The notes below the pieces were generated by a model. That model was not told where the DNA came from, did no database searches, and saw only the letters and a list, made by a program, of their open reading frames with translations. From positions 2,722,677-2,786,676 of the forward strand of contig BCIO01000003.1 of NCBI GenBank assembly GCA_001599975.1: a stretch of 64,000 bases of DNA, read 5' to 3'. The translations under genes and the position numbers were made by a program. Each line of letters opens with the position of its first letter. The first letter of the stretch is position 1. Of this stretch, positions 13,194 to 40,946 are shown one piece after another. This DNA comes from Cystobasidiopsis lactophilus (lineage: Eukaryota; Basidiomycota; Agaricostilbomycetes; Agaricostilbales; Chionosphaeraceae).

Positions 13194-14838
13194 ATGCCAC
13201 GAAATCCAATCTCGGCAGACCACTACCCCAAGGAGGACGTCCGCAAGATCAAGTACACCGTTGAGGCCATTGAAGACGCCAAGGGCCGCAAGGACGTCGC
13301 CAGCGAGCTGGAGCGCAGGTTCAGGACGGAAGTGAGTCGAGTTTACTTGGGTGCTGGCTCAGCCTTGGCCAAACGCTGATCGAGAGCTCTATTGCAGAAT
13401 CGGAGTGCGGCCTACTATCGAGCTTGGCTGGACAGCGCTCCGTCTTGGTTGAAGACCGTTGGCGCCGATTCCTCCGTCTGGAAGCACTGCGCCCGCCTTG
13501 CCAGCCAGGATTACATCTTGACGGGCACTACCTTGTGAGCTCCTCGGTGTATTCTTTCTTCTGCGCTTGTCCTCAATTGCATTGCTTGACTTTCAGGCAG
13601 AAGGGATCGAGCGCGTCAGGTACGAACTCGAACACTCGTTCTGTCAGCCTCGAGCGTCTTCTAATCTTCATTTGGTCATGGCAGCTGCTTTGAATCAGTC
13701 TCCAACTACAAAGTCCCAGATCGATTCGTCGTCCTCTGAAGAAGACAGCGGTACCACAGAGGAAGAGGATGACGAGGACGACGAGACCGACGAGGAGGAA
13801 GCCGCGCCCTCCCCTGAGCCCCGGTCCACCCCAGCAGGAGCTTCTCCTTTCTCGGAGGAGCTGGAGATCCACCGCTGCCGAGTCATCGTCAAAGAGCTGA
13901 GGAAGGGCAAATCAGTCCCCGATGTGATTGCAACTCTCAAAGCCAGCTTCGACAGCCAAGAGCCCCACACACTCAGCTCTTACCGGCATTGGCTTTATAA
14001 GAAGCGCGAACTAGGCAAGAGTGTTTTGGACATTTGCCGGGAGGTTGCCTTCCACTCTCCCAAGGAGCCGGCACCTGCCAGCTCCTCCCCTTCAAAGCGC
14101 CCGGGTCCGACCGCCGATAGTGGCCCATCATCGAAGAAGACCCGATTGGATAATGGGGCGGTAGTGACCCCTCCGGTTGCCTCAACCTCGGCTGCTGTCT
14201 CCACCTCGAAGTCAACCACTTCGAAGAGCGGCACCAGCTCCAAGGCTGCTGCCACCCCTTCCAAAGCTACAGTCCAGCCAACTCGCGTCTTCTCACGCAA
14301 AAGTTTGCCCGCGCCGTCTCAGAAACCAGCCTCGTCCAGTCAGACCACCGCCAAGCTCCCCGCGCCAACGCCCGCAGCTTCTGCCTCGACTTCGAGCGCC
14401 CGGCCCGACCGACCGAGAGCTGAGGCTCCAAAACCAAAGCTCCTTGGAAAGCCTGCAGCAGCCAAGGAGCCCGTCCCTGTTGCTCCAGAGACTCCCTTGA
14501 CGCCCCATCCTATTCACCGTGCTATCAAGGTCCTCCGCGCCATGGACGCGGTCGATAACTTCCTGAAAGAAAGCAAGAGCATGCTGGACGAAAGAGAACC
14601 CTTCTCTCGAGCCCAAGCCTTGGATCTCTACTACCGGCTGTCGGGCAACCTTGACCTGATGGTGGTTCACGCCATGACGGATGGCGCGTCGTCGCGAGCC
14701 ATCAAAGGCTTTTGGACGACCTCGCAAGATCAGTCCATCATTTCTGGCGATGAGCAATCCTTGTTACAAGAGAAAGGGGCGGCCGAGATTGCCAAAAGGC
14801 GGGCGTTCATGCAGGAGCAGGGTTGGCTGTCCGCTTGA
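13194..14838 (+). CDS. RL1: Rap1-like protein, modules A and C plus RCT domain
   Basis: First gene of the thirteen-gene array. Exons 13194-13331, 13398-13534, 13597-13619 and 13685-14838; all junctions are in phase. Start MPRNPISADHYPKEDV. An A-type helical module runs from KIKYTVEAIEDAKGRKDV through ELERRFRTENRSAAYYRAWL to SSVWKHCARLAS. An acidic stretch follows (SSSSEEDSGTTEEEDDEDD). A C-type module has CRVIVKELRKGKSVPDVI, EPHTLSSYRHWL and KSVLDICREVAF. Then comes a Ser/Thr/Pro/Ala/Lys-rich linker. The last 100 or so residues form the RCT-like domain: LDLYYRLSGNLDLMVVHAM, GFWTTSQDQSII, KRRAFMQEQGWLSA. In known Rap1, the Myb domain binds DNA or partners and the RCT domain recruits partners (human TRF2, fission-yeast Taz1, budding-yeast Sir/Rif proteins). 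That function is inferred here. Confidence 0.8.
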
Positions 14839-14999
14839 GACGTAAGTTCTTAGTTATTGAGAACTCTTTCGATCAAGTCCTGACAGTCAATTCACCAGAT
14901 TTACATGTGGCTTGCCTTCAGTACTCGAAGACGTACAGGGAACGAATGAAAATTTGGCTGTCACTCTTAATCTCCGCCAACCAACTAGTTTGGCTTGAA

Positions 15000-16774
15000 A
15001 TGGCCAACATTCCTGATCCATCGAGCTTGCCTCTAGAGAATCCACTCACCAGCGAGCCGGAAGAAAGCGAAGAAGCGAGCACCAAATCGGAAAGTCAGCA
15101 GAGCCCGAGAACATATGGCCGTGGCAGCAAAAAACGGCGATGTGGGTCGCTTTCCATGTTTCCCTTGCTTTTATTTAGAGATCTGTCTGACACTAAGAGC
15201 AGTCGGCCAGCCGTGGACTGATAGGGCCGAGAAGGTCGCTTTCGCCGTCCAGCTGATCATGAATTCGGGTGTGTCTACGTGTCTCATGGCATAATTTCCT
15301 CTCTGTTCGATCTAATTCATGGTCTCTAGATGTGTCGTTGGTCGCCACCGCTAGTGCCCTCAGAGAACACTACAACGTAGGTCCGCTTTCTCCTGTCTGT
15401 CTGGGACTTTACACATCTAACTAAAGGGGCGCGCAGGACGAAACGCGGACCACAGCATCTTGGAAAGCTCTCCTGTCTATGAACACCCGATGGGTCAGTG
15501 AACTTTTCGATGGGCACTATCTCTCCATTCGGGAGTACACGCAAACGATGAAGGCCAATCGTGAGTCGAGCTTTTGTCTGACTTACACCCGACTCAAGTC
15601 TACCGTACAGCACCCAACTCTGCCACAGCGGTCTGTGAAGAGAACCAAGGCCCGCTCGAGGAGATTGGAGCAAGCCTGGAGGCATCGCCGCCCTTCAAGC
15701 GCCGTCGAGTACTCAACAGCAGCGACCCTCTCTCGTCCTATGTCCCAAGCGAGCCTCTCGATTCCGGCACCAGAGGAACTGTTCTCAGAGACCTCACACC
15801 CTCTGGGAGTGACGACCCCGTCTCTACCTCTACTGCGCACACCTCCTTCGGCCTCTCTTCTGACTCAAGTGCCACCAAGAGTTCCAGTCCGACTCTCAGC
15901 GTCAAGAACAGATCAACTGTTTTTCATGCGACTCCTTCCAGTATGAGAGACGCACCTTATCAGAAGGAAGCCAAGGAGAACTTCGACTGCACCATGCGGG
16001 ACGAGGACGAAGAGGAGGTGGATCCAGAGGCGGTGCGTACTGAGCTTATATTCCTGAAGTTGAAAGGTCTGACTGTCGTCGTACTAGGCCGTCGCAAATG
16101 ACGAATACAACATCGACGCTTTGTTGCGCATCTATGACTTCCTCAAGATGAACGCCCAAGACAATGATCTTGGTCTCGATCCCGTCACTGCTGTGGACAA
16201 GTTCTTCGGTCTCTCCGGCAACATTCACCACGTCAGAATGCACATGAAGCTCGTCGAGGCGGAAGGCACCGACTGGATCCTCCACGACGACCAGATGTGG
16301 ACCTCTGGCCACGACGCCCTCCTGTGCACGGCCGAAGGCAGAAAAGAGGTCGTCGGTCTCACGTCGGAAGAGCTGGTTTGCCAGAGGGAGAGCTTTCACC
16401 GCAGCATGGTCGGCCCTGCGTTCACCTTTGATCGCATCAGCCGCACGAAACGCAACCTCACCCAGTTTGCGACCTGCATCGCCGCCCTTCGCCAACAACC
16501 AGCCGCAAGCGAAGCTCTCCTTCGCTGGGATCCCATTGGCGTCATCCAGCTCTACATTGCCTACTCCGGCGATGCCAACCTCGTCGCCGGCCACCTGGTT
16601 CTTCTTTCGAGTGGCCTTTTGAAAGGGATGGGCGGCAACGTGGGAACCGGTTTCTGGACTATCGAGCAAGACAAGGAGCTTTTATCCACCGGGCGGGCCA
16701 CCATCCTCAGCGGCAAGAGCCCAGAAGACATCGAAAAGAGGCTGGCTTTTCTGCAGCAGCATGATTGGGCCTAG
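15000..16774 (+). CDS. RL2: Rap1-like protein with one A module and two RCT-like domains
   Basis: ATG 15000 (MANIPDPSSLPLENPL). About seven exons. The A module is split over small exons: VGQPWTDRAEKVAFAVQ, DVSLVATASALREHYN, and TASWKALLSMNTRWVSELFD with REYTQTMKAN. A Ser-rich linker follows, with an acidic run DEDEEEVDPEA at an intron. The last exon has two RCT-like domains in series. The first reads AVDKFFGLSGNIHHVRMHM, MWTSGHDALLCT and CQRESFHRSM. The second reads VIQLYIAYSGDANLVAGHL, GFWTIEQDKELLSTGRA and EKRLAFLQQHDWA. No C module is present. It starts about 160 bp after the stop of RL1, so its promoter must be short or overlap the RL1 3' end. It is the only member with a doubled RCT. Confidence 0.77.
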
Positions 16775-17593: not shown

Positions 17594-18749
17594 ATGCGTC
17601 CTCGCTCGACGGAGGGCCGAGGAAGTCAAGGCACGCCTTTCGACAAAGCCCTTCTGTCGGAGCGAATCGAGATCGTGGTCGGCCTGTTGGTTGATAACAA
17701 AAACTTGTCCCAGGGCGACATCGCTAAGCACCTTGCCGAAAAATACAACCAGCAAGAGTACCATCCCGCCCAATCCTGGAGAAGTGAGCCACCTTTTTCC
17801 CCGGCTTCGGCGCCTTCTTACGTTGGTGACTGCAGGCTTTTTGTCGCGACCTACGAAGCATGAAGATGGTTATGAGGGAAAGTCGGTGATGAATCTGGCC
17901 GCCGCCAAAGCTGCCCGAATTCGCCGAGAGCGGCGCTCGCAGTCGGAAGAGCCACCACTGCCTCCGCAGAAGTCGCAGGAGCGCCCCGCCAAGACTCCGC
18001 CGCAGGTTCAGCAGCAGTCAGAAGACCATCTTGAAGCACCAGAAATCTTCACCATTGACGACGATGAGAGCGAAGAGTCGGAAGCCGAGAAGGAGCAGCC
18101 GCCGCCCAAGAAAAAAGTTCGCCGCATTGCGCCCTCTCTGTCGCCCACCTCATCAACTCCAACGGCAAGCCAGCCCGTCCCGACCCAAGCTTTGGATCTG
18201 CCAGATGGCATGGCCCAGCTGGTCGCCGACCGCCAAGAGAGCCTCAATCGGCAACGCTCCGAGAGTCCGGACAAGCCATTGGCCATGCTCGTCGCGCTCA
18301 ACCACTACCCTGCCCTCAAAGAGACTCTTCACCTCGGCTCCTCTCCGCCGACATCTAGCCAAAGCCGTTCGCCAAATCCATCTCCCGTGAATCGTTCTGC
18401 GCCTCTACCTGAAGCCTCACCTTTCAGCTTGAATCCCAGAATCTCATTGTTCAAGCTGCTCGCGGAAGTCCAAAGCTTCATCAACCGCAACGAAGACCTC
18501 GTCGAACACCACCGTTTGTCATTCCAACAAGTGGCCAGCATTTAGTTCGCGTTCTCCGGCAACGAGGTCTTCGTCCAGGCCGAAGTGGAGGCGGCAGCTG
18601 ATGGCGGCTCGCTCGACATACCAGCTCGATGGGGGGAGCATCAAGATGGACTCCTCTTTGCAGGTCGCCGCCAAGATGCCCTCCTCATCAAGAGTGAGAA
18701 GCTGGTCTCCACGCGCGAGGCCTTCTTGCGAAACCTCGGCTTGCTGTGA
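17594..18749 (+). pseudogene. RL3: Rap1-like gene with an in-frame stop inside the RCT domain
   Basis: ATG 17594 (MRPRSTEGRGSQGTPFDKAL). Exon 17594-17783 joins 17836 onward in phase. A C-type module reads KALLSERIEIVVGLLVDN, IAKHLAEKYNQQEYHPAQSW, then GKSVMNLAAAKAAR. The linker is acidic and Pro-rich with IDDDESEESEAEKEQ. The RCT begins with RISLFKLLAEVQSFINR and SFQQVASI, then meets TAG at 18543-18545. The same frame continues after it with FAFSGNEVFVQAEVE, ARWGEHQDGLLFAGR and STREAFLRNLGLL, ending TGA at 18747-18749. Relatives have Tyr at the stop position (LYYxLSG), so one base change explains it, and everything around is well kept. It is thus a very young pseudogene, a gene making a truncated protein without a working RCT, or an error. 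No plausible intron removes the stop. Confidence 0.75.
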
Positions 18750-19474: not shown

Positions 19475-20652
19475 ATGAAAATGGACGCGCCCATCTCCTC
19501 GCCAGCGTCTCCAGGGCCCAGTGATGGCAGACACGCTGTCCGACGTGTCAAATTCAACAAGTCATTGCTGGCGGAACGCATGAAGCTGGTCAAAAGCCTC
19601 CTGCTGGAGGGTAAAGGCTCGAGGCAGATTTGCCAACACCTTCGGCGGGCCTACCTCGAGGTCGAGCCTCACTCCGTCGAGTCTTGGTACAGTTCGTGCT
19701 TGTTCCTGTCTGAATTTCAGCAAGGCGCTTTAACTAGAGCTTGCCAGGCTACATCTGGAGGCCGTTCAACTCGCACAGTCCTGTGCCCGGCATGGCGATC
19801 CTGGACGTCTGCAGGAAGCAAATCGGTCAACCAACTTCCAGTGCAGCAAATCCCTCTCACACAGACTCGGACATGTCTACGTCGTCCAGCGATGGCAGCG
19901 ATTATGAAGATGGCGCCTCGGACGCGACCAGCTCCAGCTCAGACGAAGAAGACTCCGACGCAGAGCAGCGTAGCAGGAAGAGGCGGCGGCTGTCAAGTGT
20001 CACATCCGTGGCTACCAAGCGCTCTGATGCTCCCACTAGCTTTCTTGCAAGCCCCGAATTGGTTCGTAAGGACAGCTGCGCCTCGACCTCGACTTGTTCG
20101 ACCAGTTCGCCCAGTGAACGCTCTCTGGCCACACTGTCAAAGGAGCGGCCGCCAATAATCGACTCGGAAAGCGAAAGCGACAGCGAGGACGAGCCTTTGG
20201 CCAAGAGTCGGCCACCCGTGCAACGACCTCCAAAGTCGCAGAAGTCCGCCCGAAAGTCTTGCGTTTTCCCACCACCACAGTCTTCATCGCTCGCCTCTAC
20301 GAGGTCGCAGACGCCACCTCCAGTCGCCCCTGCTAAGCCCGCCAAACCTCACCCGAAAGCAAACTTCTTGCAAAACTACCTACATCTCCAAGCCTTCTTC
20401 CAGACGCACTCGAACGACATCCAAGCTATGAAGCTCTCGTTCGAACAAGCGGCGGACGTCTATTTCGCCATGTCTGGAGACCCAAAGCTGCTGGAGACCT
20501 ACTTCGCCAAGGGCGGAACATGTCGATCATCTTGGACGGAGGAGCAAGACTTCTTCTTACTGGATGGCTGCAGACCGGTGGCGCTCACGGTCAAAGGCGA
20601 GACTGCAACAGTCGCTCGCGAGGCCTTCCTCAAGCGCTATGGCTGGCTATGA
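19475..20652 (+). CDS. RL4: Rap1-like protein, module C plus RCT domain
   Basis: Two exons: 19475-19691 and 19748-20652, in phase. Start MKMDAPISSPASPGPSDG. C module: RRVKFNKSLLAERMKLVKSL, GSRQICQHLRRAYLEVEPHS and VESW, interrupted by the intron, then YIWRPFNSHSPVPGMAILD and VCRKQIG. The linker is strongly acidic and Ser-rich (SSDGSDYEDG, SSSDEEDSD, DSESESDSEDE) with RKRRRLSS as a possible nuclear signal. RCT: HLQAFFQTHSNDIQAM, ADVYFAMSGDPKLLETYF, SSWTEEQDFFLLDG, VAREAFLKRYGWL. It is the simplest complete member of the family (one module, one RCT) and has no visible defect. Confidence 0.83.
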
Positions 20653-20827: not shown

Positions 20828-22073
20828 ATGTCTCAGGGTCCGCTTTCGTCCTCGTCTCTCGTGCACACAGCCTGACACATAATCTACAGCCGGCAAAGTA
20901 CACGACAGACAGCAGGAGAAGATCGCTTTAGTGTTGAAAATGGCTCGCAAAGGTCAGGATGGCCTTTCAAGTCCATCGCACACCTCAATATTCAATATGA
21001 GACACAGGCCGCACCAAAGCCCAAGCTCTTGCTCGGCTGTCCAAGGTCTACGAGGTGCGCACATCCATGTGCAGACTTGGCTTTGGGCTCACCACACAAA
21101 GTTGCCAGGACGAGGAGCGCTCAATAGGATCTTGGGACTGCTTCCTCTCCACGACGCCCAAATGGGTTCGACAGACGACGGGCGGGCCCTCGGTGTGGGA
21201 CTATGCCGTCAAGAAAGCCAATGAGCGCCGGTTGGCTCTGCAGAAGAGGAGCGAACAAGGTGCGCACACCACTTTCTCTTTGCGCTTTTGCTTGAGATTG
21301 CTCATTTGCACGATGGTATCAATACAGAAAACCACCCTGCTAACGCCAGTGACAGAGGTGGTGCGAGCTCGACGAAAAGCACGGCCACGGGTCCTGATGG
21401 TCCATCCAAAAAGAAGAAGCCCAGCTCCAGCCGCCCCAAGTCGGCTGCGCCCGTCCCCAATCTTGCTTCTCGTGCATCTCAACCTTCCAGCGCACACTCG
21501 ACCGACGCTCGAAGCAGAGCCGCGTCTCCTGTTAGGGTTGCGGTGGACTCCACCTCCGCTGTTCCGCAGACCATGCAGGGGTTTGTGAAGGGACACGAGG
21601 CGCCAGTCGATATCTGGATCGTAAAAGATAGCGACGACGAAGAAGAAGACGAGGACTTCAAAGGCAGGAAACACATCAAGCAACCCTCCTCTCGCGCTTC
21701 CCGCCGCACAGTGGGCCTGACCCCTTTCTCAGGCAGCTTCGGCGCCACCCCTTCTTCCACCACCGGGCCCCTCGGCACCGTCTCATTCTTGGAATATCCT
21801 CAGTTTGTCGATGCGTGGCAACCCCGCATCCAAGAGCTTGGCTTGACCAACAAGGAAGTGGCGTCCGTGTACCGCGCATTCTCTGGTCACCGCCTGTACA
21901 TCGAACAGTTCCTCTTGGATGGCGGCCAATTGGCGGAAGACTACGTCGACATGCCCGCCTTCTGGACGGCGGAACAAGACAAGGCGCTGGTTGACGACCG
22001 AGCCAAGATGGTGGCGCTCAAAGGCGAAATTGAGGTCAAAGGACGAGAGCGCTTCTTGGCTTCGCGCTGGTGA
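20828..22073 (+). CDS. RL5: Rap1-like protein, module A plus RCT domain
   Basis: Five exons: 20828-20837, 20890-20952, 21008-21054, 21109-21259 and 21328-22073; each junction is in phase. The first coding exon is only 10 nt (ATGTCTCAGG). The A module is spread over exons 2-4: QQEKIALVLKMARKG, RTKAQALARLSKVYE, then SIGSWDCFLSTTPKWVRQ and GPSVWDYAVKKANERR. A Ser/Ala/Lys-rich linker (SKKKKPSSSRPKS) and a short acidic segment with WIVKDSDDEEEDEDF follow. RCT: VASVYRAFSGHRLYIEQFL, PAFWTAEQDKALVDDRA, VKGRERFLASRW. Its closest relative is RL6, which shares exon layout, the phrase WxVxDSDDEEE and the upstream region. Confidence 0.82.
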
Positions 22074-23048: not shown

Positions 23049-24354
23049 ATGTCGCTAAGTCGGTGCTCCTAGCTCTAAGATATGGACGAGTTCTCATCAT
23101 GCGATCAATACAGGTGGAGAGCCTCATAAACACAAGCGGGAGACCATCAATCTCGTCGCTCGCCTGTTCCAAGAAGGTGAGTTTCTTCGGCTAGAACTTT
23201 TACAGCTCGCTGATATTGGAAGCGTCAGGCTTGACCAAAGACGAGATCGTCTCAGAGCTCATGAAGACTTACAAGGTTTGGTCAGACGCTCTCTCGCCCA
23301 GCCGCGATCTGAGATCATCCACTGTCTTCAGGCCGAGGGACGAAGTCAGCACGCTTGGGACAGACTTCTGACTGCCAATGTTGGCTGGGTTGTACGCAAG
23401 ACCGGAGGATATAAGACGATTTGGGACTACGCATTCGCGATGAAGCGAAAGCAAGACGTCCAACGCCAGCAGGGTACGTTTCTTCGTTCTTCTGCTTTGT
23501 ACCACCGAGTTTGAATGACGCCGCTCGCAGAATCGGACAAACGATTGCGCTCCAATCCTGCCGCCGTCCGACGCGCGACCACGGAAGCTCCTCGATCCCG
23601 ACGAGAGTATCAGCCAACCGACGGCGACCCTTCCTCCGATTACTCGCCTCCTAGCCACCAGCGTGCTAGGTCTGTCATGTCCCGCCACGAAAAGCCCAGC
23701 GGCGGTCGCCACAAGTCCGCCGCACCAGCCTTCAGGGCTATCGGCCCTCCGACCCGCCTCAGCACCCAAATCCAAGCTATGCAGAGCAGGCTCGCCTCGC
23801 CTAACGCGAAACTCTCGCCTGTCTTGCCGGATGGGTTGGCCGACTTTGTCAACGCTTATCAACCTCCACCCAAGCCGCAGCAGGAGATCTACTGGGTCAG
23901 AGACTCGGACGACGAAGAAGAAGTCGAAGCTCCCTTCATCAAACAACAGACCCCTTTCTACGCCTCGCCCACTCCCCGCACCGTGGCGTCAACGCCAGCG
24001 TCTAGCATAGCTCAATCGACCCCGGCCGCCGCCAACCTTTCGGATCACGTCCCTTTCTCTCGCTTCGCCACATTTTTGGACACCTATGGCAGCAGGATCA
24101 CCGAGCTGGGCATGACTTACTCGCGGACCTTGGAGCTGTTCAAAGCGCTTTCCGGCAACCAGACTCTTCTCGAGCTCATCTTGCTCGACGGTGGCCACCT
24201 GTCCCCAAAATACGCGTCTTTGCCTGCTTTCTGGACCGCAGAAGACGACGAGTTGCTGTACAGCGATAGGGCCAAGGCCGTATCCCGCAAAGGAGTAGTG
24301 GAAGTGGAAGCGCGCGAGCGGTTCCTCCAATGGAGGTGGACGGGAGGCTTCTAG
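23049..24354 (+). CDS. RL6: Rap1-like protein, module A plus RCT domain
   Basis: ATG 23049 in a 10-nt first exon (23049-23058), like RL5. Reading over short introns gives MSLSGEPHKHKRETINLVAR, LFQEGLTKDEIVSELMKTYK, then AEGRSQHAWDRLLTANVGW and GGYKTIWDYAFAMKRK: a full A module with introns at the same places as in RL5, RL7 and RL8. The linker contains a stretch of Arg/Ser/Pro and YWVRDSDDEEEVEAPF. RCT: FSRFATFLDTYGSRI, LELFKALSGNQTLLELIL, PAFWTAEDDELLYSDRA, EARERFLQWRW. The stop is at 24352-24354. It is a near sister of RL5 and has no visible defect. Confidence 0.82.
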
Positions 24355-27550: not shown

Positions 27551-30108
27551 ATGTCGACCTCCGGAAGCAGCCGCAGTACGCCTTCTGCTTCTAGGGAGGA
27601 CGGTGTCACTGATTGCTGTTGGTTTTCGTAAAGCGCCCGTCTTTCAGCACGAATCTCGCTCTTCGTCTAGGCAACCTTTTGAAAACAAGGAAGACAAGGT
27701 GAAAATGGCCCTCAAATTCGCTCAACAAGGTCTTGCTTCCCCCCGGTTAGCCTTCGCACTGAGTCTTACTTACGGCGTACTGTACCAGGTCTCGATATGC
27801 CCGACGTTGCCGATGCTCTGGCGGAGTACTACAGGGTACGTGCCACAGACCGATCCTGGAGTCTTTGGTCTCACTGCCATGGCTTTCAGGGGGAAGGCCG
27901 ATCTCCAAAGGTGTGGAGGGACTTCCTCAGAGGCGAGCGACGCTGGGCACAAGAACTGCTCGGATTCAAGTCGGTAGAAGCCTACATCCAAGCGGCGCTG
28001 GAGACAAAGGATATCCCTAGCACCACTTCCACTGCGGTCGAACCGGAGCGCTTGACGGAATCCAACAACACTCGACTCCTTTTCGCCGAGAGACCAACTA
28101 TGGCGCCTCGCAGCAAGCCCTCCCGCCGACCGAGGACAAACTTTCCGAACTGTCAGAGCTCGTTCGGCACAAGATCTCCGTGGAAGAGGCTGCGGGCATA
28201 TTGCACCAGCGGTACCTCCATTCCTCGGGCTTCGACAATTCGACGGCGTGGCTCTTGTATCTCAAAACGCCACTCGATTGCTTGAACAACCAATTCCCCT
28301 TGGCAGATGGCTCGAGAGCTTGCTGGCAGTCCTCTCGCTGGCCGCTCGCCCCCCTCTACGCCCTCGCTGATCAGTATTGATCCCCGCCTCACCTTTTCTG
28401 TCCCCGAGCCCGCGTCCCCTGCATCTTCCACCTTCGACAATGACCGACAGTCCCACTCCAGCGGCAATCCTCAAAGCGCCGAGAAAACCTCCCCTGAAGG
28501 CGACACCTCTCCCACTCGCAAGGCTAATGTCGCTTTCAACAAGGACCTTTTGCCGGAAAGGATGCAAACGATCGTCAGGTTAATAAAGAAAGGCTGGGCT
28601 TTGAAAGTGATATGCCAGATTTTGTGCGAAAAGTACGCCGACTCCGAGCCGCATTCGCCTTCATCTTGGAACGGTGGGTGATATCGTCAAGACACACACG
28701 TTGAGCGCACTAATGCTCTGCTTATTCAGCCTACTTGACTCGTCCCCAGCCCCAGCCTTACCCCGGAGCTCCCGAACGCTCGATCCTCGAACGCTGCCAG
28801 GATTTGGCTCTGCGGGGCGAGGGCGAGGTGTTCATCGAAGGAAAGCGCCAGCCAATCCAAACGAAACGTGCGTCACCTGAGACTAGCAACGAGGAGCCGG
28901 CCTGGGATGCCACCTCTATCGGTCGCGAAACTGGCGGTGATCTGCCACCCCCGTTCAAGCAGCGCAAATTGTCTCCTCGTGAAGCTCCGCCGCGCCTTTC
29001 TCCCATTTCCCCGACACTGGCCCTCTCTAGCCCAGCCCCTAGCCCAAACACCCCGCCCAAGATCTCTCCAATCAACCAATTCTTCGACATGTGCGACTCG
29101 GCTCAAATATCCTCTACGCAAGGCCTCTTTGTGCAGCCAAATGGAGGCTTCATGACGCCCATAGCATCTGTATTGTCCCAGCCGGGCAGGACCGCCGGTT
29201 TCGCGGACAGTCGACGCCTTTTGCCTTCTCTCGCCTTCCCAAATGATTCCAGCATTGACGGCGACAGCCACATCTATCCGAATACCCTCATTGCCGGCAC
29301 TATGGACGAGGTCAGCCCACCACTTCAGCCTGAGCCTTTTCACTGGACCAATGAACAGGCTTCCGAATCGCCCGCCCAAATCCAAGAATTGCCTATTCAG
29401 ACTTTCGACGTTGGCGTCCAGACCTCTTCTCTTCAAGATCAAGAGCTGTATAACTCGACTGACAGAACCCGTCCAGCCCTTCCTCAGGAGCCTGAGGCGC
29501 TCGTTCAACCCGAGGTCCAACCTGAAGCGCTCTGCCCTCAGGAGCAAAAGCTGCCCGCCCACTATGGTTCGCCTCGCCCTCAGGAGCAAGAGCTGCCAAT
29601 TCACTCTGGTGCCCAACTTCCTCAAGAAGACCAGCCTGCCCAACCTGAAATGTTGTCGAGCGCTGCATTGGACTTTGATGCAGACCTGCCTACTGCTTTC
29701 AAAGAACAAGAGGGGTCTGTTTCAGACTCCGAAAGCGTGGAGCTGCCTCTCGCCTTCCTGGAACCCCCTCCCAACGCGCCGAACCACATCGGCAGGAGCG
29801 TTCAAATCCTCAAAGTCCACAACGCTGTCCGCCAGTTTGTCGAAGAGCGCACCGACATTGTCAAGCAAGCCGACGTCGACGTCGACCAGCTTATCGACCT
29901 CTATTACAGCTTTTCGGGCCACTTTGATCTCATGGCGCTCTACTTGGCGAGCGACGGCGCGTACACTAATCGCCTGCCTGCGTACTGGACGCCCAAACAG
30001 GACTCTGATTTGCTGAGGGGCCGAGAAATCCAAGGCAAGAATGCAGCCACGATCGAAGCGCGCCGCCAGTTCTTCAGGCAGCAAGGATGGCTGACCGATA
30101 AGCCCTGA
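27551..30108 (+). CDS. RL8: Rap1-like protein, modules A, B, C plus RCT; one apparent frameshift
   Basis: Likely ATG 27551 (MSTSGSSRSTPSASRED). A module: NKEDKVKMALKFAQQG, LDMPDVADALAEYYR, then GEGRSPKVWRDFLRGERRW and FKSVEAYIQAALETKD. B module: TEDKLSELSELVRHKISVEE, AAGILHQRYLHSSGF, STAWLLYLKTPLDCLN. At 28291-28302 the frame must change by one base to reach MARELAG, the expected end of the module (RL9 has PWEVARELAG); the CCCCTT run there is the likely site. C module: NVAFNKDLLPERMQTIVRLI, ILCEKYADSEPHSPSSW, and PERSILERCQDLAL. The linker has repeats of the type PQEQ(K/E)LP near 29545-29610. RCT: IDLYYSFSGHFDLMALYL, AYWTPKQDSDLLRGR, ARRQFFRQQGWLTDKP. If the frameshift is real the RCT is lost from the product. 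Confidence 0.72.
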
Positions 30109-30590: not shown

Positions 30591-32814
30591 ATGTCCGAGC
30601 TCGAGGCCGAGACGTCGTCGCTGTCGCCCGAGGAAAGAGCAGCCAAAGTCGCTCAGATCGTACACTTAGCCAAGCAAGGCCTCGACAAGCCACAAATCGT
30701 CAACGCTTTGGGGCGCATCTTCTTGGACGAGGAGCGCTCGCCCAGCTTTTGGCTGCAGCTCATCGAAGGCCCCAACAAAGCAATCGAAGCATCGTTCGGG
30801 TTTGCCTCGCCTTGGGAATGTAAGCTGTCAACTGCTGCTGTCTATGACAACGTGCTGAAGTGACGCCCATCAGACGCCCTCGCCATGATACGTCTCGGCC
30901 GCCCCGACCCTTCTCCGCAATCAGGTGAGCTTGCCCGCTTGGTCTGCCTCCGTTTCATCTTGGCAGTGCTCAAAGCGTGCTCAGATGAGCCTGGTGTCGA
31001 GGCGGGTGCTCCAGAATCCGGCAATGTCGATCCCATAAAAGCAGACAGCCCACCACCTGCCCTTCCAGCCGCCTCCTCTCCTCGCCGCAGCAGTCGCCGC
31101 AGTGGAGCTGATGACGAATCTGTCGCCCCGACTTCTCGCCGCAGCAGTCGCCGCAGTGGCGCTGATGATGAACCTTTTGCTCTGTCGCCGCCCTCCAGGC
31201 GTTCTCAAGGTATCACGGAGGAGGCCGACAAGCTCTTCGAACTCTCCGGCCTGATCAGTGACGGGATGACCATGGAAGAAGCAGCTCGTGTGATGAACGC
31301 CCGATACCTTCAGATGGGCTTTGCCAGCGCGACCAAGTGGCTTCAATACCTGAAGACGCCTCTGCAGCGTTTGAATCACCGTGCGCCCTGGGAAGTCGCC
31401 CGAGAGCTCGCTGGCCATACTGTGACCACTCCACAGCCTTCACCTCGCCCAATCGATTCCAAATTGCCGGCTCTGGCGTCGCCCCCGCTCTCCCCGTTGG
31501 CGCCGCTCACGCCCTCGCCCGTGCGAGCTCCCGCCAATATAGCTGCGCACGTCGCGACGGTGTCTCAACTTGGACCGGCCAAATCTCATGTGCGTTTTGA
31601 TTTGCCCGAAGACGATGTCGGCGATTTGGCCGCTGCGCCCGCCTCCGATGCCGTCAGCGACAAGCCCGCCAAACAGACCTCGCCCAACGTCAACTTCAAG
31701 TTCAACGGCACTCACCTCAACGTGATCTCGCACCCCAGTCAAAATAGGACTCTGCTGCCATCTCCCGTGCGCAGCAAGAAGGCCGACGAGTTCAAAATCG
31801 GCATCAAGCGCGTGCGAGCCCCCGGTACCCACGTTCGGTACAATAAAGCGCTGCTGCCCGAGCGCGTGGAGCTGATCGTCGGCCTCATGAAGCAAGGCCA
31901 AGGCACTGCCAGCATCATCAAAGCTTTGATGGCCAAATATGAGCAGACCGAGCCGCACTCCCAGGGCAGTTGGTCAGGTGCGATCTCGCCATTCGTGTTG
32001 GTCTTGTCCGCCTATTGAACTTAAAGCACTCATACACGAAGGCTATCTCGCAAAAAACACGCACGGCAGCGGCCGCTCGATTCTGGATATCTGCCGTCAG
32101 CGAGCGTTTGGTCGGGTCAGCAGCTCTGGTGAGAAGGTCGACGACGACGAAGACGTCGTGTTCTCAGACGACGACGAGGTCGAATGGCGCGAGGAAGCCA
32201 TTGAAGACGCCGAGCCAGATGATGTTGCCACGCTCGCCGCTCCTGGGCGAAAGAAGCGCCGCGCCTGCTCGCCATCGCCTCCGACCCCCGACCGCGCGAC
32301 GCCACCGCCCATGCCCACACCTTTGCTTCCGGATGGCCTCGAAGCCTTTGTCCTGTCCCACCAGCTCGCTGCGCCCGAACCGCAATCGGTTGCTGCCGTC
32401 ACCCAGACCTCGCCCTTGGCGGGCCCCGTCGAACCCGAGTCGCCCCGCATCGAAGAGACGCCCGCAGTTGCTCTTACCCACTCTGTCGCCCATCCCATGC
32501 GAAGCAGCATCTTGATGCTCAAGGCCTACGCTGCGGTCCGCCAGTTCATGGTTGATGAGGCCTCGCTCGTCGCTGAACACGCCGTGACTATGGAGCACGC
32601 TTCGGAGCTATACTTCTCGTTCAGTGGCAACTTTGAGATGATCTCTCTGCACCTCGCCAGCAAGGGCGCCATCACCCAGAGCCTCAAGTCATATTGGACG
32701 GTCGAACAAGACGCCGACTTGTTCGAAAATCGCCGCGCTCAGGCAGTGGAAAGCAAAGGCGAAGCTTGTGTGGTCGTTCGAGAGGCTTTCTTCAAGAGCT
32801 TGGGCTGGATGTGA
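30591..32814 (+). CDS. RL9: Rap1-like protein, modules A, B and C plus RCT domain
   Basis: ATG 30591 (MSELEAETSSLSPEERA). A module: KVAQIVHLAKQGLDKPQIV, NALGRIFLDEERSPSFWLQL, then FASPWEYALAMIRLGRPD after a short intron. A twice-repeated Ser/Arg segment (RRSSRRSGADDE) follows. B module: ITEEADKLFELSGLISDGM, EEAARVMNARYLQMGF, ATKWLQYLKTPLQRLN and PWEVARELAG. C module: HVRYNKALLPERVELIVGLM, IIKALMAKYEQTEPHSQGSW; after an intron ALIHEGYLAKNTHGSGRSIL and DICRQRAFG. An acidic linker comes next. RCT: SELYFSFSGNFEMISLHL, SYWTVEQDADLFENRRA, VVREAFFKSLGWM, stop 32812-32814. It is the best intact example of the long form and a good reference for the family. Confidence 0.84.
31081..31171 (+). repeat. 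Two imperfect tandem copies coding RRSSRRSGADDE in RL9
   Basis: CTCGCCGCAGCAGTCGCCGC and the following bases occur at about 31081-31118 and again at 31135-31171. Both are in frame inside the linker between modules A and B. Confidence 0.7.
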
Positions 32815-33047: not shown

Positions 33048-34742
33048 ATGACATCGAGGCCTCCAATGTCTGGTAAACGCAGCCTACATTGCCGCAGAAA
33101 GGACCGGGCTTACACCTTCCCGCATCGAAAAGGCCCCTCATCGCCGACCCAAAAACTTGACCCGGCTGAAGCGCCCAGATGGCGCCGCGACAAGCTGGAC
33201 ATGATCACCTCGATCATTTCTGAGTACCCTGATGTCGAGTTGGACGCCGTGGCTGCGGAGCTCTTCGCGAGATACCAGGCGGGTTGTTTTCTTGCCGGAC
33301 GCGAAATGACGGCTTCTGAGATCGGCTTTTCGACCTCACCAGAGCGAGGGCCGCCTTTTGGATGGCTGGGTCGCTTTCTTGAAGTCGACGCCCACTTGGC
33401 TGGGCCAAATGTTGCCAGGCCCGGGCAATGTTTTCGCAGCCTGCAAGAGGGATGCAGAATCTAGGGACGTCGAAGATGTGAAGATGGAGACCGCTTCCAG
33501 TGACTTCGAAAACCCGACTTCTCTAATCACTGCTCCTCCTCGGCCTCCTGCAAACCCACCCAGTGAGTTTGTTCGCAAATCGGCGAGGGACCAGCCCAGT
33601 AACAACTCACTTCAGCGGCCGGCGGTTTCCGTCTCTTGCCCTACGAGCCCAAGCCCAAACCCCCTCCAGAGCCCAAGAGGCCTGGAGTTGCGCGAGTCAA
33701 GCGCCTCCGGGAGGAGGAACGCAAGTCGCCTTCGCCGGCCCAAACTATGCGGGCTTCGGGATCCATGCCGGACGAGGAGGACAAGCTGGTCCAGATCCAA
33801 GACCTCATCCGAAGCGGACACTCCCTGGAGGAGACGGCGAGACACATGCACGAGACCCACAAGGCTTCGGGCCTCTCCAAGTTCTCCCATTGGAAACTCT
33901 ACCTGCAAGAGCCGCTGGCACGCTTCGGAAATCGGTCGCCTTGGGCCGTCGCGCACGAGATGAACGGCACCATCCCTCCGCCGATCGCTGCGCCAGAGTC
34001 CACGAACGACAGCATGTCATCTTCCTCCACCACCTCACGCGAATCGCGGTCGTCTTCCTCGTCCACGACTGACGGCGAGCCCGCTACCAAAATGCGAAAG
34101 CTTCATACGGACGACGCGTTGGACTTTGAGGTGGACGTGGACAGCGGCTTGGACGAACCAGAAGCTGTCCACGCGCGCATTGGCAACAGTAGACACTCAC
34201 GCCCGACCGCCTACGTCGACCCTGTGGCGGCGCTTCCGGCTGGCCTGGTCGATTTTGTGAATGCGCACCAGCCTCCCAGCCAAGTATTCCCTTCACCGAC
34301 TCCTCGCCTGCCTCCAGCGGCCAAAGCCTCCCCGGCCAAGTCCCGTGCCACCTCAACACGCGCTCCTCCTGCTGCCGTCGTTCATTCGGTGCATCCTAAG
34401 CAGCAAGCTTTTCACCCCAGTTACGCCAAAGTTTTGGACGAAGTGAAGGCATTCGTACGCGAGCAATCGCGGGCCATGCCAGATGTATTTCAAGGCCCGG
34501 ATGCGCCTACCCTCGACCTCTTGTTTGAACTCTTTTATCGACTCTCTGGGCAACTCGACCTCGTCATATGCCACCTTTTGACTTCAGGGCAGAGCTCCAG
34601 CAAGATCCAGGGCTTCTGGGATGAAGATCAGGACCAACTGTTGTTCGCCGGACGAGTACAGGAGCTCATGCACATCAAAGGCGAGGTCGAAATCCAGCGG
34701 CGCATTGATTTCGCTAAAGCTCAAGGATGGATGCCGGCCTGA
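33048..34742 (+). CDS. RL10: Rap1-like protein, modules A and B plus RCT domain
   Basis: Likely ATG 33048 (MTSRPPMSGKRSLHCRRKDR). A module: RRDKLDMITSIISEYPD, DAVAAELFARYQ, then SEGRLLDGWVAFLKSTPTW and GNVFAACKRDAES. The join needs a GC-AG intron at 33279-33342 (CAG then GCGGGT); it falls exactly where RL8 has a GT-AG intron. B module: DEEDKLVQIQDLIRSGHSL, EETARHMHETHKASGL, KFSHWKLYLQEPLARFGN and PWAVAHEMNG. There is no C module; a Ser/Thr-rich linker and a segment with DFEVDVDSGLDEPE follow. RCT: FELFYRLSGQLDLVICHLL, GFWDEDQDQLLFAGRVQEL, QRRIDFAKAQGWMPA. Upstream 32815-33047 is the short spacer from RL9. Confidence 0.77.
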
Positions 34743-34914
34743 TTTCTTCTCCGGCTTCCTTTCGACCGGGCTTGCTCGCGCCCACATTGTAAAACAGATC
34801 AGTCGCTTTCCCCCTCAGTTAGCATCATTTGTGCCCATAAGTGGAGAACGCATTCGAGTGATCGGCGCGCCCAAGGGAACTTTCCCTTACTAGTAAGCTT
34901 GGACGCAGAGAGCC

Positions 34915-36851
34915 ATGTCCGACATTTTACACTCTTTCTCGCCTCCTACTGAAGTTGGTCCAGCCGCAACGCTGCCTATTAGCCCGGACTCTACACTGGA
35001 CGAAGTGTTCGGGCCGCCCGTTGTCATTGCGCCCGATAATGCTTCGGCGGACTTTGTTGACACGGGAGTCGTGACGGAGCTCAACGACGCCAATCTCAGC
35101 CTCAATGAGGTCTCGCCCGGATGCTTGAGCCCCGCCGACGTGTTTCCTGCTTCTTGTGAGCTCTTTTACCATGGGACGGGTCCAGTGCTCGCGAGTCGCA
35201 GCCCGTGTTTCGGATTTCATTGTTTTGCTACAGCATTTCTCAACATCCTGCCGCCCAAAGACGACTTGGCGACGTCTCAGTTCTTCAAGACTCGCATGCT
35301 GCCTATGCCCGATGGCCAAATCGTCCATGCCGCAGTCGATGCCCCGACTTCGCCGCGCCGCAAGCCGGCCTCGCCCACTCCCGCGTAAGCTCCCGCTTGG
35401 GTTACGACTGTCTCTTACCACATATGAGCCCAACAGAAGATCTTCGCCGCACTACGAGCCGCTCGCAAGGGCGGTCAACTTCTCAGAGAGCCTCTTGGAC
35501 GAGCGCATGGCCTTCATCGTCAGTCTCATGAAGGAAGGAAAACCAAAGCACCTCATCTGCGACGCCTTGTCTCACAAGTATAAAGTGATAGAGCCTCACG
35601 CCTCGTCCGTGTGGTCCCGTTATCTGAACCAATCTGGAGTCGATGCCGAAGATTCCATTTTGGGATAGATGCAAAGCCCAGATGGCGGCAGACTTTGCGG
35701 CAGAAGAGTCGGTGGATGCTGGTCAGCGCAAGCGAAAGTCTCGTGCTAGCGACGGAGAGCTTCGCGTTGCCGGCAGCAAGCGGAGTCGCAACAAGAGGCA
35801 AAAGATGCGCTTCTCAGAAGACCTGTTGCCAGAGCGGCTGGACTTCGTGACCGCCAAACTTCGAAGAGAACAATCCCTGCAGCAGATATGCGAAGCTCTA
35901 GAGAGGACTTATGCTGTCACTGAGCCTCACTCCGTCAGCACTTGGCACTGGTGGCTGCACAAGGTCCGCAAGGATGGGCGCACCTATATCGAGATCTGCC
36001 GCCGTCGCCTTATCTCTACCGATGATGGAGCGCCTCAAGCACCAAGCAACTCGGAAGGGATTCGTGAGGGCATTGCTTCAATCCCCTGATTTTCTTACAG
36101 TAGTGTTGCATACAGAGCCTCCACGCAAACGAGGACGACCAAGAAAGCTCCCTGACCACCTAGCTTCCTATGTTGTCCAGCAGTCGCCCCGTCGGCTTTC
36201 CATCGACCACACGGGGTCCAACGCGCCCGAAGATTCGGAGCGCAGCGAGCGCGACGTCTCTGCAGAATCAGTCGCGCCGAGCTCCATAGCTCAGACTTCT
36301 GGGGTCGCTTCTTGTACAAGTTCAGCTCCAGCCAACCCTCTCGTACCGGAGAGTCCTCAAGCCCGTGGTCAACAAACTCCAGGTTCTGGTGACCTTGTTC
36401 GGCTTTCAGCGGTCGTTGCACAGCCAGTCAACACTTCGCATGCCTCTTTCAACGGCACACCTGCGGCGCCTTCGGCTCCCTTCGTCCACCCGGAGCAGGC
36501 GACTCTCGGCCTCCTGCGCCGTTTGAGCAATTTTTTGGCCAGCAAGTCCGCCATTAACCAAGGCAAGCTGGATTTGGTCGGTGCTCTCGAACTTTATTAT
36601 CGACTGAGTGGACAACTAGTGAGCGGCACTTGCATACGCTTGTCCTGACGATGCTTATACGCTGCAAGGATCATCTGACATCGTTTATGCTCACTGGACC
36701 AGCGCTGCTGGACCATCTCGATGGATACTGGCGCGAAGAGGACGATGAGATTCTGTTCAAAGAGGGGCCGGATGCCATGGTGGCGGAAAAGGGGGAGGAG
36801 GAGGTCGCATTACGCGTGGCGTTCTGCAGGCGGATGGGGTGGATGCCTTAG
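34915..36851 (+). CDS. RL11: Rap1-like protein, two C modules, AT-hook-like motif, RCT; one apparent frameshift
   Basis: ATG 34915 (MSDILHSFSPPTEVGPAA), leader rich in Asp/Pro/Val. First C module: AVNFSESLLDERMAFIVSLM, LICDALSHKYKVIEPHASSV, then GVDAEDSIL, after which one extra base (TTTTGGGA, 35657-35664) shifts the frame; the other frame goes on with WDRCKAQMAADFAAEE. Second C module: KMRFSEDLLPERLDFVTAKL, QQICEALERTYAVTEPHSV, STWHWWLHKVRKDGRTYIEI and CRRRLI. After an intron comes PPRKRGRPRKLPDH, an AT-hook-type motif that in other proteins grips the minor groove of AT-rich DNA. RCT split by an intron: ALELYYRLSGQL, then DHLTSFMLTGPALLDHLDGY, WREEDDEILF, VALRVAFCRRMGWMP. The frameshift, if real, leaves only a leader plus one half module. 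Confidence 0.72.
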
Positions 36852-37279
36852 CGCGGGCTCGCGAATGAACCGCTTTCTCAAGCGATAGGCATGGTGCCGG
36901 CTTCGCCAGCCACCAGAAGTCCCCGATGTCCAAGACCCACAAAGCCCGGACCCTCTGAGCTCCAGTTTCAACTTGAATCTTTGCCCTCGATTCCTTTAGG
37001 CCATTTCACGGCTTCCTTCTGCGCAGAATTCAACCAGTGCAGCCAATACTCGCGCAAAGGGACAGGAGACGCCGAAATCCCATCAGCGTCGATCTGCCAC
37101 CAGACTGCCACCAAATAAGTGCTCCGCGTTGACCAGCGAACAGTGTAAGCTTCAGCCTGACATTTTGGTCTTACAATGTTGGAACTATATTGATCGCACA
37201 CAGTAGTCTAGTGCATCAACAGTCCAGAGAAGCTAGCGACGACCGCAAGGCTCCCCCGCTAGCGAGTCATCATCTCTTG
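36852..37279. other. Intergenic, RL11-RL12
   Basis: 428 bp; no gene or clear element seen. Confidence 0.4.
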
Positions 37280-38785
37280 ATGTCTGCCGCCTCCTTTTGG
37301 CTGTACCCACCACTTTCGGATGGCGAGAAGGATTCAGCTCTACTGAAGCTCCTTCAGTACCATACAAAGGCTCGACTTCGGTCCGAGCTCGATGGGAAGC
37401 GCAAAACGTCGTGGTCGCCCGAGATTTCGCCACGCCTTATTTCTGAGGTCTACGCCGTACTTCGCACCAACAAGACAGCAAAGGCAGTCTCCCAAGCTTT
37501 GGCGCAGCGAACAACTCAGAAAGATTCGTCCATGTGGGAGCGTTGGTTTGCTAGACCAGCGTTACATCAAGGAATACCAGGTTCTATCTGGTCGATTTGG
37601 AGGGACCGTTTCAGTCCTGTCGCTTGGAAAACGCCGTCAGGGAGGAATCTGTTCTCCTTCGGGTGGCTGCCAGAGCAAGTTGGGCATATTGTCAGCTGCT
37701 TAAAGAAACAGGCCACGGTCGCTGCCATTTGCGAGGACTTGTCAGACCTGCATCGGGAGGCAGAGGCTCACACGCACGAAGAGTGGAAAAAGTGGCTCTG
37801 TCGTCCAGGGTCGGGTGGCTGTTCCCTCCTTCAATATTGCCGAAAGCTGGCTTCTGGCTTCGGTTCCAGGCAGTCGCCCTCGTCCCGGAACACCAGCGGC
37901 ACGTCAGCCTACAGAACGAAGAAGATAGCTCCCCTTTATGGAGCTTCTTCGAAATGCAGCAAACCTTCGGCCAACAGAAGACTACCTCGCTTGCCCAGTG
38001 CTGCCCACCAGCGCCAGCATCAAGTGGCAAAAAAGCACCACGCGCCCATCGTTGACGCTGAGCAGGAACAAGCAAGCGTGGAAGCGACTGCTGGTCCGAG
38101 CGAGGGCACTGGACGCAGACTTCCCGATGCACTTTCCGGTCCGATGCCACAACGTTTCGAAGCTGTTCGATTTGGTCGCCAAAACGTCGAATCGTCTCCA
38201 CCTCTCAGCAACGACAACATACAATCACAAGTTTTGGATACTTTCGCAAAGAACAGCTTGCCTCAAACACCCCAGGTCAGCAATACGCGATTGCTCTCTA
38301 CAGTCGACTCTGCCGTGACACCTGCCTGCGCGACCGGCACACCCGAAGCTTTAAGGCTCCCACCTACTCATCTTCATCGCTTTGGCTGCCCTCCAAGCAG
38401 CCCGCACCCAGAGCAAGCCTTCCTTCAGCTCTCCCGCAAGCTGTGCAACTTTTTAGCCTCAAAAGCGCACCTCAACGCTGGGCCCGACGCGATGGACTTT
38501 GCACAGGCCCTGGAGCTCTATTACCGTCTGAGGTAAGCGCCTTTTGGGCCCTAAACCCATATTGCTGGCCGGCGCTCATACGGCAATAGTGGCAACTTGA
38601 GCCTGCTGGCGTGCTGCATCAAAACGGGCCCGGACTTCGCCGTTCAAGAGCTAGATGCTTATTGGACGGAAGAACAAGACGAATTGTTGTTTGCTGGTCG
38701 GACAACGGAGCTGGAACAGTTGAAAGGGGACGATGAAGTGCAGCTTCGGTTGGCGTTCTGTCGGAAGCAAGGTTGGATCGCTTGA
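37280..38785 (+). CDS. RL12: Rap1-like protein, divergent A and C modules plus RCT domain
   Basis: ATG 37280 (MSAASFWLYPPLSDGEKDSA). Only one intron, inside the RCT (after LELYYRLR). A-type module: ISPRLISEVYAVLRTNKTAK, AVSQALAQRTTQKDSSMWE, RWFARPALHQG. C-type module: FGWLPEQVGHIVSCLKKQA, AAICEDLSDLHREAEAHTH, EEWKKWLCRPGSGGCSLLQY and CRKLASGFGS. A linker with basic and Gln-rich stretches follows. RCT: PHPEQAFLQLSRKLCNFL, ALELYYRLR, then SGNLSLLACCIKTGPDF, DAYWTEEQDELLFAGR, VQLRLAFCRKQGWIA. It pairs with RL13: same plan, same intron, same LACC(I/L)KTG segment. The two form the right-hand subgroup of the array. Confidence 0.82.
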
Positions 38786-39269
38786 GAATTTGTGAGTGCG
38801 CATTCTCAGCGCCGAAGCAACGCATTTGTAACTGTGCCCCTGCTCAGCTGCCTCTCCCCAGGATGAGGGTCTACTCCAGCTCCGGAGACTCGGTGGCGTG
38901 GTGGCTTTGGTCCTCGGGAATCCCGCCTCCTTTTTCGCTACGTCGACAAGACTCCATGATAAGCCTTCACCATATGAGCGAGTGTGAATGTAAAGAGAAA
39001 CAGAGTTGGAACAGAGTTGGCATTACCGCCACCCGAGCACCGAGCGGGAGGCCACAGCATCGAATCCCTGTTGACCTCTTTTTGTCCGAAAGGGCTCTTC
39101 TTGGCGAGCCATATCTCGGCCTTTTCCCAGCTCGCCAGCTAGAGCTTTCTGCTGCACTCCCGAGAGCAAAACGACTTTGGCTTGGTTGGCACCTTTCCGT
39201 TCTTCGACAAAGGTCTTTCGACGAACCTACAGTAAGGTATATCTAGGATGCCGTAGTCGCACCTTCCTG
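38786..39269. other. Intergenic, RL12-RL13
   Basis: 484 bp; no gene recognised. An in-frame extension upstream of the RL13 ATG exists but lacks an ATG start with support. Confidence 0.4.
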
Positions 39270-40946
39270 ATGCGTTCTGCCCAGCGAGCATCCCGCAAGG
39301 ACGCCAGCATGCCCAAACCCAAGGGCGTCTCGACTTTGAAGGATTCCAAAGCCGGCTTTGCCACTTTTGACGATCTGGCGCAGCAAGCTCAAGCTTCCAG
39401 CACATTCTGGTGCTGCACACCCTTGCCACGGGCTAGTCTGAAGGACGATCCGTTGCTCCTCAACCTCCTCCTGTACCTTGAACATGTTCGACGCCCTCTG
39501 CCGCCACCCCAAGGCTGGTCCAAAGGATTGACCTATTGGTCACCCGAACTCTCACCTCGTTTCGTCTCAGAAGTATACTCCGCCCTCACTGTGACCGGCT
39601 CGCTGTCCGATCTTTGTCAATCGCTGGCTAAGAAAACAACCCAGAAGAACATAGCAAATTGGCAGGCCTGGTTCAATCAGCCCATCTTAGCCCAAACGTC
39701 TCTGTCAGGGTCTGTGTACTGCCTATGGAAAGCACGGCACTCCCCGGCGCACTGGAAGGACCGTTCTGGACGAAATTCCTTCTCTCCAGCGCGCTTGCCT
39801 GAGCAGGTCGCTTACGTTGTCAGCCGGTTGCAAGAGGGAGCTGATATCGGACGGATCTGCGTGGAGCTGCAAGCCGCTTATGCTCACATCGAGTTTCACA
39901 TCGTGGACGACTGGAGGAACTGGCTGTGTGAAGAGCGCCGGAAAGGCACATCCATCCTCCGCTATTGTGGCGACCGAATCGAGTCCGGCTTCAGCCTTCC
40001 AAGGATCGCTCTGGGCCGAGTCGACTTCGCCCCCAGATTCTTGGGCTCTGCCCTCGGCATCGGGTCCCCAACATCAACTTCCACTTCTGGCAAGCGCAAG
40101 GCGACCTCCGGCTTCACCCTGCGGCCTGAGAAGCGCCAAAAAACTTCCAAACAACAGCATCAACGCGATCCCGGCCTGTCTCTCCGCCAAACCGGCACAC
40201 CCGAAGCTGCGGGAGCTGATCGGCGTGAGGCTGAACAGGAGGCTAGACGCGCCCAAGAGCCTAGGCTAACATCGCCTCCATCTCCGTCAACACTGGTGCT
40301 GAGGTTCAACTCGTCCACACCTGCGCAAGCGGCCGCGAATGCGCCAAACGCCGGAAGGCTGGTCCAGTCCTCGCCACCGCTGACCAATGACGACACCGCT
40401 GGGCCACCCACCAGCACCCATGGCCAGGTTGATTGCGATTTGGTGCTTCCAGCAACACAGCTGCCAGCTGCCTCCTTTAGCAGCCCGCCTAGCATCCCTG
40501 TCCTTTCGACTCCTCCCTCGCCACAGCCGCCCCCATTTGCCTCAACGTCGTTCACCTCAAGCAAGCCGCACCCTGAGCAGCCCATCCTTCAGGCGACTCG
40601 GACGCTTTGCAACTTTCTCAAGGCCAAGGCGCACCTCAACACCGGGCCTGACGCGCTCGACTTTGCTCAAATTCTCGAGTTGTACTATCGCTTAAGGTGA
40701 GCTCAAGACTCCTTCGACCACCTTAGCACCCTAGTAAAGCATTCCCGCAGTGGCAATATGGATTTGTTGGCCTGCTGCCTCAAAACTGGTCTTGACTTTG
40801 CAGCCCAAGAGTTGGACAGTTATTGGACAGAAGAGCAGGACGAGCAGCTGTTCTCAGGCCAGACAGAAGAGCTAAATCGGCTCAAAGGAGAAGACCAGGT
40901 TCAGCTTCGAGGCGCATTCTGCCGCAAACAGGGCTGGACCGCTTGA
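39270..40946 (+). CDS. RL13: Rap1-like protein, divergent A and C modules plus RCT domain
   Basis: Likely ATG 39270 (MRSAQRASRKDASMPKPK); an in-frame ATG at 39309 is also possible. A-type module: LSPRFVSEVYSALTVTGSL, SDLCQSLAKKTTQKNIANW, QAWFNQPIL. C-type module: SPARLPEQVAYVVSRLQEG, RICVELQAAYAHIEFHIV, DDWRNWLCEERRKGTSILRY and CGDRIESGF. Linker with RKATSGFTLRPEKRQKTS, a likely nuclear signal, and Pro/Ser-rich tracts. RCT with one intron after LELYYRLR: SGNMDLLACCLKTGLDF, DSYWTEEQDEQLFSGQ, VQLRGAFCRKQGWTA. It is the last array member; the next gene is an unrelated glycosyltransferase. It has no visible defect. Confidence 0.82.

Follow-up and report, generated by a model that had tools for sequence, protein, structure and literature searches.

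Thirteen tandem Rap1-type genes in the genome of Cystobasidiopsis lactophilus, with TTAG as an apparently shortened telomere repeat

We analysed a stretch of 64,000 nucleotides (the window) of the genome of the basidiomycete Cystobasidiopsis lactophilus (assembly GCA_001599975.1, 22.1 Mb in 8 contigs, designated C1 to C8). The window corresponds to C3:2722677-2786676 (contig BCIO01000003.1) and contains, at positions 13194-40946, a tandem array of 13 consecutive plus-strand genes, as described in an earlier note made from the DNA letters; all 13 contain introns. The encoded proteins share one layout: one to three helix-turn-helix (HTH) modules come first, followed by a linker, in many copies acidic and rich in Ser and Pro, and by a C-terminal domain of the Rap1 C-terminal (RCT) type. 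The gene models were built by hand from splice signals, and start codons and some introns are the analyst's choice, made without transcripts. The genes, with lengths in amino acids (aa), are as follows:

Gene 1, 13194..14838, plus strand: 483 aa; two HTH modules (the second at 13843-14055), acidic Ser/Pro-rich linker, RCT at 14518-14835; open model.
Gene 2, 15000..16774, plus strand: 495 aa; one HTH module, two RCTs (16088-16423, degenerate; 16424-16771); open model.
Gene 3, 17594..18749, plus strand: one HTH module, RCT with a TAG at 18543-18545.
Gene 4, 19475..20652, plus strand: 373 aa; one HTH module of the EPHSxxSW type, RCT; open model.
Gene 5, 20828..22073, plus strand: 338 aa; one HTH module, RCT over the Rap1_C cut-off in the genome search; open model.
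Gene 6, 23049..24354, plus strand: 361 aa; one HTH module, RCT over the Rap1_C cut-off; sister to gene 5 in the tree; open model.
Gene 7, 24876..26978, plus strand: 614 aa; three HTH modules, RCT; open model with one GC-AG intron.
Gene 8, 27551..30108, plus strand: three HTH modules and an RCT; the second module is out of frame unless removed by splicing; model provisional at the 5' end.
Gene 9, 30591..32814, plus strand: 686 aa; three HTH modules, RCT; open model.
Gene 10, 33048..34742, plus strand: 505 aa; two HTH modules, RCT; open model with one GC-AG intron.
Gene 11, 34915..36851, plus strand: two HTH modules, RCT; frame change in module 1 at about 35640-35665.
Gene 12, 37280..38785, plus strand: 482 aa; two HTH modules, intron inside the RCT; open model.
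Gene 13, 39309..40946, plus strand: 527 aa; two HTH modules, intron inside the RCT; sister to gene 12 (RCT identity 75%); open model.

Ten of the 13 genes (1, 2, 4, 5, 6, 7, 9, 10, 12 and 13) are open from ATG to stop and encode proteins of 338 to 686 aa; their models contain 30 introns of 43-68 nt (28 GT-AG and 2 GC-AG). The RCT of gene 3 is broken by an in-frame TAG (18543-18545), which on its sequence makes this gene a probable pseudogene, the frame of gene 11 changes within the first module (about 35640-35665), and module 2 of gene 8 is frame-shifted unless spliced out. The array is therefore a mixture of intact and damaged copies, as had been suggested, in which most copies are open. In gene 2 the region 16088-16771 is a tandem RCT pair whose first member is degenerate, i.e. 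an internal domain duplication. Since 1.04 Mb separates the end of the array from the nearer end of C3 (3.81 Mb), the locus is not subtelomeric.

The C-terminal domain had been likened to that of Rap1 in the earlier note, and comparisons of profile, sequence and fold all point to the Rap1 RCT. In a search of the whole genome the Pfam profile Rap1_C exceeded its cut-off at four places (25.0-26.8 bits), all of them within the array (genes 1, 5, 6 and 10). When an RCT profile was compared with PDB sequences, the best five of 10 matches were all Rap1, and in a structure comparison of the predicted RCT fold (the gene 1 RCT was modelled with a predicted local distance difference test score, pLDDT, of 90.1) the top six of 16 matches were all Rap1 RCT domains; the structural match lists hold only chains ranked by Foldseek, and leave room for families not listed. 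RCT was thus matched both by profile and by structure, and the absence of any such match, which the note had named as fatal to its claim, was not observed. A chance resemblance to RCT in some other, unrelated helical bundle, in which case the proteins would not be relatives of Rap1, is very improbable. The single-sequence Pfam scores, which lie near the cut-off (20.2-24.3 bits for single open reading frames (ORFs), 25.0-26.8 bits in the genome search), are in line with such a resemblance, as is the patchiness of the Rap1_C matches: at E<=1 none was found in five of the 10 ORFs scanned (genes 4, 7, 8 and 9, and the domain-less 5' ORF of gene 9), and at E<=0.1 six of nine spliced array proteins matched (gene 1, 1e-4; gene 10, 2.2e-4). 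Each of the three comparisons nevertheless puts Rap1 alone at the top.

A family RCT profile, built from the RCTs of the array and of a fourteenth gene described below, so that the array's own sequences match it by construction, found one RCT per gene and two in gene 2 (E<=0.05). With the same profile and threshold, neither strand of the rest of the window yielded a further RCT, nor did the 10-kb flanks. A BRCT domain was not found at E<=0.1 in the nine array proteins scanned in spliced form (all but those of genes 3, 6, 8 and 11). Because BRCT was not found, the array products are classified as Rap1-type RCT proteins and not as canonical Rap1.

The 22 HTH modules modelled constitute one family: leave-one-out scores were 20.8-63.5 bits in all 22, compared with 7.8-10.0 bits for the best of 2000 shuffled decoys. 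Eight of the 13 genes have more than one unit when the modules with frame changes in genes 8 and 11 are counted. The modules had been described as Myb-like; of this description the predicted HTH fold stands, and a Myb assignment does not follow from the sequence or structure comparisons. Pfam Myb models gave no match at E<=10 to 14 unspliced module sequences, Myb or Myb_Rap1 profiles none in nine spliced array proteins, and Myb_Rap1 none at E<=10 in the whole genome, where the controls gave no match either. When the module was aligned by hhalign with the DNA-binding domain of yeast Rap1 (its sequence entered by hand), the probability was 0.15 (percent scale) across 12 columns, which are the HS..W / HT..W segment named by the earlier note, and the structural lead to Rap1 was tied. 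No telobox was seen by eye in the array modules. The modules most likely contact DNA. Several other matches were set aside: a PDB "CAP repeat" match of the module profile (2.2e-7) is a sum of weak repeated matches, each insignificant by itself (the best piece has an i-Evalue of 25), and TnsA_C (0.017, in two of 14 modules), HTH_23 (0.027, in gene 7), DOCK_N (0.0014) and MFAP1 (0.024; each of the last two in one of six spliced proteins) were taken as chance, all four being weak.

The earlier note had proposed to look for a separate Rap1 with BRCT; a separate gene with module and RCT exists, in whose ORF BRCT was not matched. This fourteenth gene lies 338 kb from the array, on the minus strand (C3:2395931-2398036, a 702-aa ORF), and is possibly the oldest member of the family. 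Its Rap1_C matches (0.003 with the entire ORF, 3.6e-4 with a C-terminal piece joined by hand) are both under the curated cut-off, and its HTH module was recognized at 1.1e-5 by a profile built without it. The 702-aa ORF gave no BRCT match at E<=0.1. BRCT_2 had one match in the genome (C5:1985205-1985534, minus strand, in a 212-aa ORF; PF00533 was not searched), in a search whose control was matched in seven of 14 cases. Two further matches were discarded, one at C1:3914057 (E 0.011), which by eye falls in a DEAD-box helicase gene, in an acidic stretch, and one at C5:808131 (E 0.43).

Inspection of the contig termini revealed TTAG repeats in telomere orientation at six of the 16 ends (the starts of C1, C2, C3, C5 and C8, and the end of C2); seven of the remaining ends have no repeat and three read N. 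The terminal tracts (28-174 bases) have a G-strand free of C, and their printed units comprise 99 TTAG, 26 TTA and 12 others; TTTAG variants are present, and the start of C5 is weak (three TTAG and three TTA). A query of four GTTAG units had 44 exact matches in the genome, all in telomere orientation and no more than 130 bases from an end of C1, C2, C3 or C8; the control read backward had 15, whose places were not listed. Four TTAGGG units gave no match in the genome. Basecalling errors in TTAGGG are not known to yield TTAG. A TERT gene is present on C5 (Telomerase_RBD, 1.7e-23): of three ORFs scanned at this locus one passes Telomerase_RBD, one has RVT_1 at 4.5e-4, under the cut-off, and one has no match, and stretches resembling motifs A and C can be recognized by eye. 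The repeat thus has the features of a telomerase-type repeat, being confined to the ends, with the G-bearing strand toward the 3' end at all six and TERT in the genome. Judged from the assembly, TTAG seems to be a shortened form of the telomere repeat in this genome. The final 3000 bases of C3 match those of C8 exactly, which reflects either a shared subtelomere or an assembly overlap. No Rfam match was found in these two 3-kb segments, and no ribosomal RNA at the contig ends, where 13 of 16 loci were searched (those that read N were omitted).

We also looked for other proteins of duplex telomeres. TRFH gave no match in the genome at E<=10; the controls were silent too, so absence is not established. 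The telobox Myb motif is of the VDLKDKWR type, and a regular expression for it, from which introns could hide the motif, found none in 30 loci of 40 Myb matches. A DNA pattern for LKDKW (blind to CGN arginines) had two matches in the genome and its control six. Neither of the two is a telobox Myb by eye: one lies in a frame with stops that adjoins a sterol-oxidase-like gene, and the other resembles the C-terminus of the TFIIA large subunit.

The locus, judged from its sequence, is the product of tandem expansion of a Rap1-type gene. RCT identity between neighbours is 38%, compared with 31% for permuted orders (p 0.0005), and between copies mostly 20-40%. This test and the RCT tree comprise 12 genes, gene 3 being omitted for its broken RCT and gene 2 represented by its second RCT; the supported groups in the tree are genes 5+6 and 11+12+13, and eight of the 10 inner branches are open. 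Per-site synonymous (pS) and non-synonymous (pN) change was 0.83 and 0.41 in the pair 12/13 and 0.70 and 0.44 in the pair 5/6. Both frames are open in each pair and synonymous sites are saturated or nearly so, and we therefore infer from these two pairs that the array is old and has mostly been kept by selection. No homologues of six aligned spliced proteins were found at E<=0.001 among 8000 candidates scored, which is weak evidence, as the database seems poor in fungi: a conserved enzyme of the window used as query had 22 relatives there, and the named ones were bacterial. The array is bordered by ordinary neighbours, an RNB-domain protein (window 7644-10403, plus strand) and a Glyco_transf_49 protein (43036-44475, plus strand).

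Fungal repeats that lose the GGGTTA core are bound poorly by TRF/Tay1, and Rap1 is then the duplex binder (PMC7952879, PMC7744550, PMC6746865). The Myb domains of Tay1/TRF are described as specific for TTAGGG (PMC7952879), and here the 30 Myb loci contain no telobox; the duplex-coating task of Tay1/TRF (PMC7952879, PMC7744550) is the one proposed below to have been taken over by the array. The array shares with Rap1 of Saccharomyces cerevisiae, which has BRCT, two Myb units and RCT and binds telomeric duplex, the C-terminal RCT (by profile and by fold) and, in eight of the 13 genes (those with frame-changed modules counted), several HTH units before it. It differs from the yeast protein in that no BRCT was found, the modules are not recognizable as Myb by sequence, and the genes are present as 13 tandem copies and a dispersed one; the yeast sites are given as GGTGT-type (PMC6510891), in contrast to TTAG at the contig ends here. 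The modules have a fold match, weak and tied, to the yeast DNA-binding domain. Human RAP1/TERF2IP is reported to have one Myb and to reach telomeres via TRF2 (PMC6510891), whereas modules are repeated in eight of the 13 array genes and the TRF search was without match, its controls being silent. The statement that a single Rap1 is kept in known fungi goes too far, because Hansenula polymorpha has two (Rap1A and Rap1B), which lie on separate chromosomes and possess BRCT and a duplicated Myb (PMC6510891); the array, in contrast, has 13 in tandem and no BRCT found. HpRap1B recognizes telomeric DNA and HpRap1A does not, and the paralogues occupy ribosomal protein promoters, a precedent for specialization through divided DNA targets (PMC6510891). 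In the open-licence PMC literature neither a tandem Rap1 array nor a TTAG telomere was found among the matches listed. The Rap1 family and its two-copy duplication are thus known, and the tandem arrangement and the TTAG setting look new.

A change of telomere repeat is believed to be accompanied by a rebuilding of the telomere proteins. The cases known to us concern a single Rap1 gene or two, with repeats that retain their G run, and we know of no telomerase-type repeat shorter or less G-rich than TTAG. The TTAG ends give the expansion a concrete context. We propose that a Rap1-type gene expanded in tandem and that the paralogues took over duplex telomere binding after loss of the GGGTTA core and then specialized, a reading to which we assign a probability of about 0.48. 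The repeat would have shrunk to TTAG, losing the core read by the Myb domains of TRF and Tay1, and Rap1-type proteins would have assumed duplex binding, as Rap1 in budding yeasts. The one to three HTH modules would bind DNA and the RCT would dock partner proteins, as it does in yeast and human Rap1. Given a repeat without GGGTTA and local genes with HTH and RCT, some array proteins are proposed to coat the TTAG duplex and to recruit partners through the RCT; other paralogues may have specialized in telomere, subtelomere, gene promoters or partner choice, as with HpRap1A/HpRap1B. The telomerase RNA would hold a CTAACTAA-type template. Three elements are inferred: binding of DNA by the modules, a place at the telomere for even one copy, and a connection between the altered repeat and the gene expansion. 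More tentative is the full claim that the shortest and least G-rich telomerase-type repeat known to us has a duplex coat of tandem Rap1-derived HTH-repeat proteins in place of TRF/Tay1.

Several points weigh against this proposal. The yeast Rap1 DNA-binding domain stood first in the module's structural list, but weakly and tied with unrelated folds, and the OB fold of POT1 gave no genome match at E<=1 (the controls were silent too, so absence is not established); both lower our confidence slightly, in favour of the regulator reading that follows. The coincidence of repeat and expansion rests on one genome, and action at internal regulatory sites is a serious alternative. The array may encode Rap1-derived transcription or chromatin regulators of promoters and silencers, with the telomeres held by the fourteenth gene or by an undetected TRF/Tay1 homologue, whose absence is not established (the TRFH and Myb_Rap1 controls were silent). 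This is quite possible: 1.04 Mb separates the array from the nearer contig end, the number of modules varies by copy, which fits diversified targets, and only one of the two Hansenula paralogues is described as recognizing telomeric DNA, ribosomal protein promoters being occupied as well (PMC6510891). It leaves the coincidence of the expansion with an unusual repeat unexplained, though one genome cannot distinguish this from chance.

Low RCT identity (mostly 20-40%), one to three modules per copy and three damaged-looking copies of 13 would also suit an arms race, in which the paralogues keep pace with selfish DNA that changes quickly, such as subtelomeric elements or transposons, and the repeat change is unrelated. 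This is improbable, since per-site synonymous change exceeds non-synonymous change in both pairs measured and no selfish-element target was identified (no search was made). The in-frame stop or frame change in three of the 13 copies might instead mark the decay of most products of old duplications, a single copy or two still working; ten frames (338 to 686 codons) have stayed open even though synonymous sites are at or close to saturation in the two pairs measured, and we regard such decay as distinctly improbable.

This genome combines a four-base repeat lacking GG with 13 + 1 Rap1-type genes. The TTAG repeat bears by itself on minimal telomerase templates and on end-binding proteins. If repeat and array are linked, they offer a way to ask how ends without the G-runs of G-quadruplexes and without the TRF site are protected, and a test of gene amplification as a route to new telomere specificity. 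Should the Rap1 family indeed coat TTAG, it would be a natural experiment in which shelterin was rebuilt through gene amplification.
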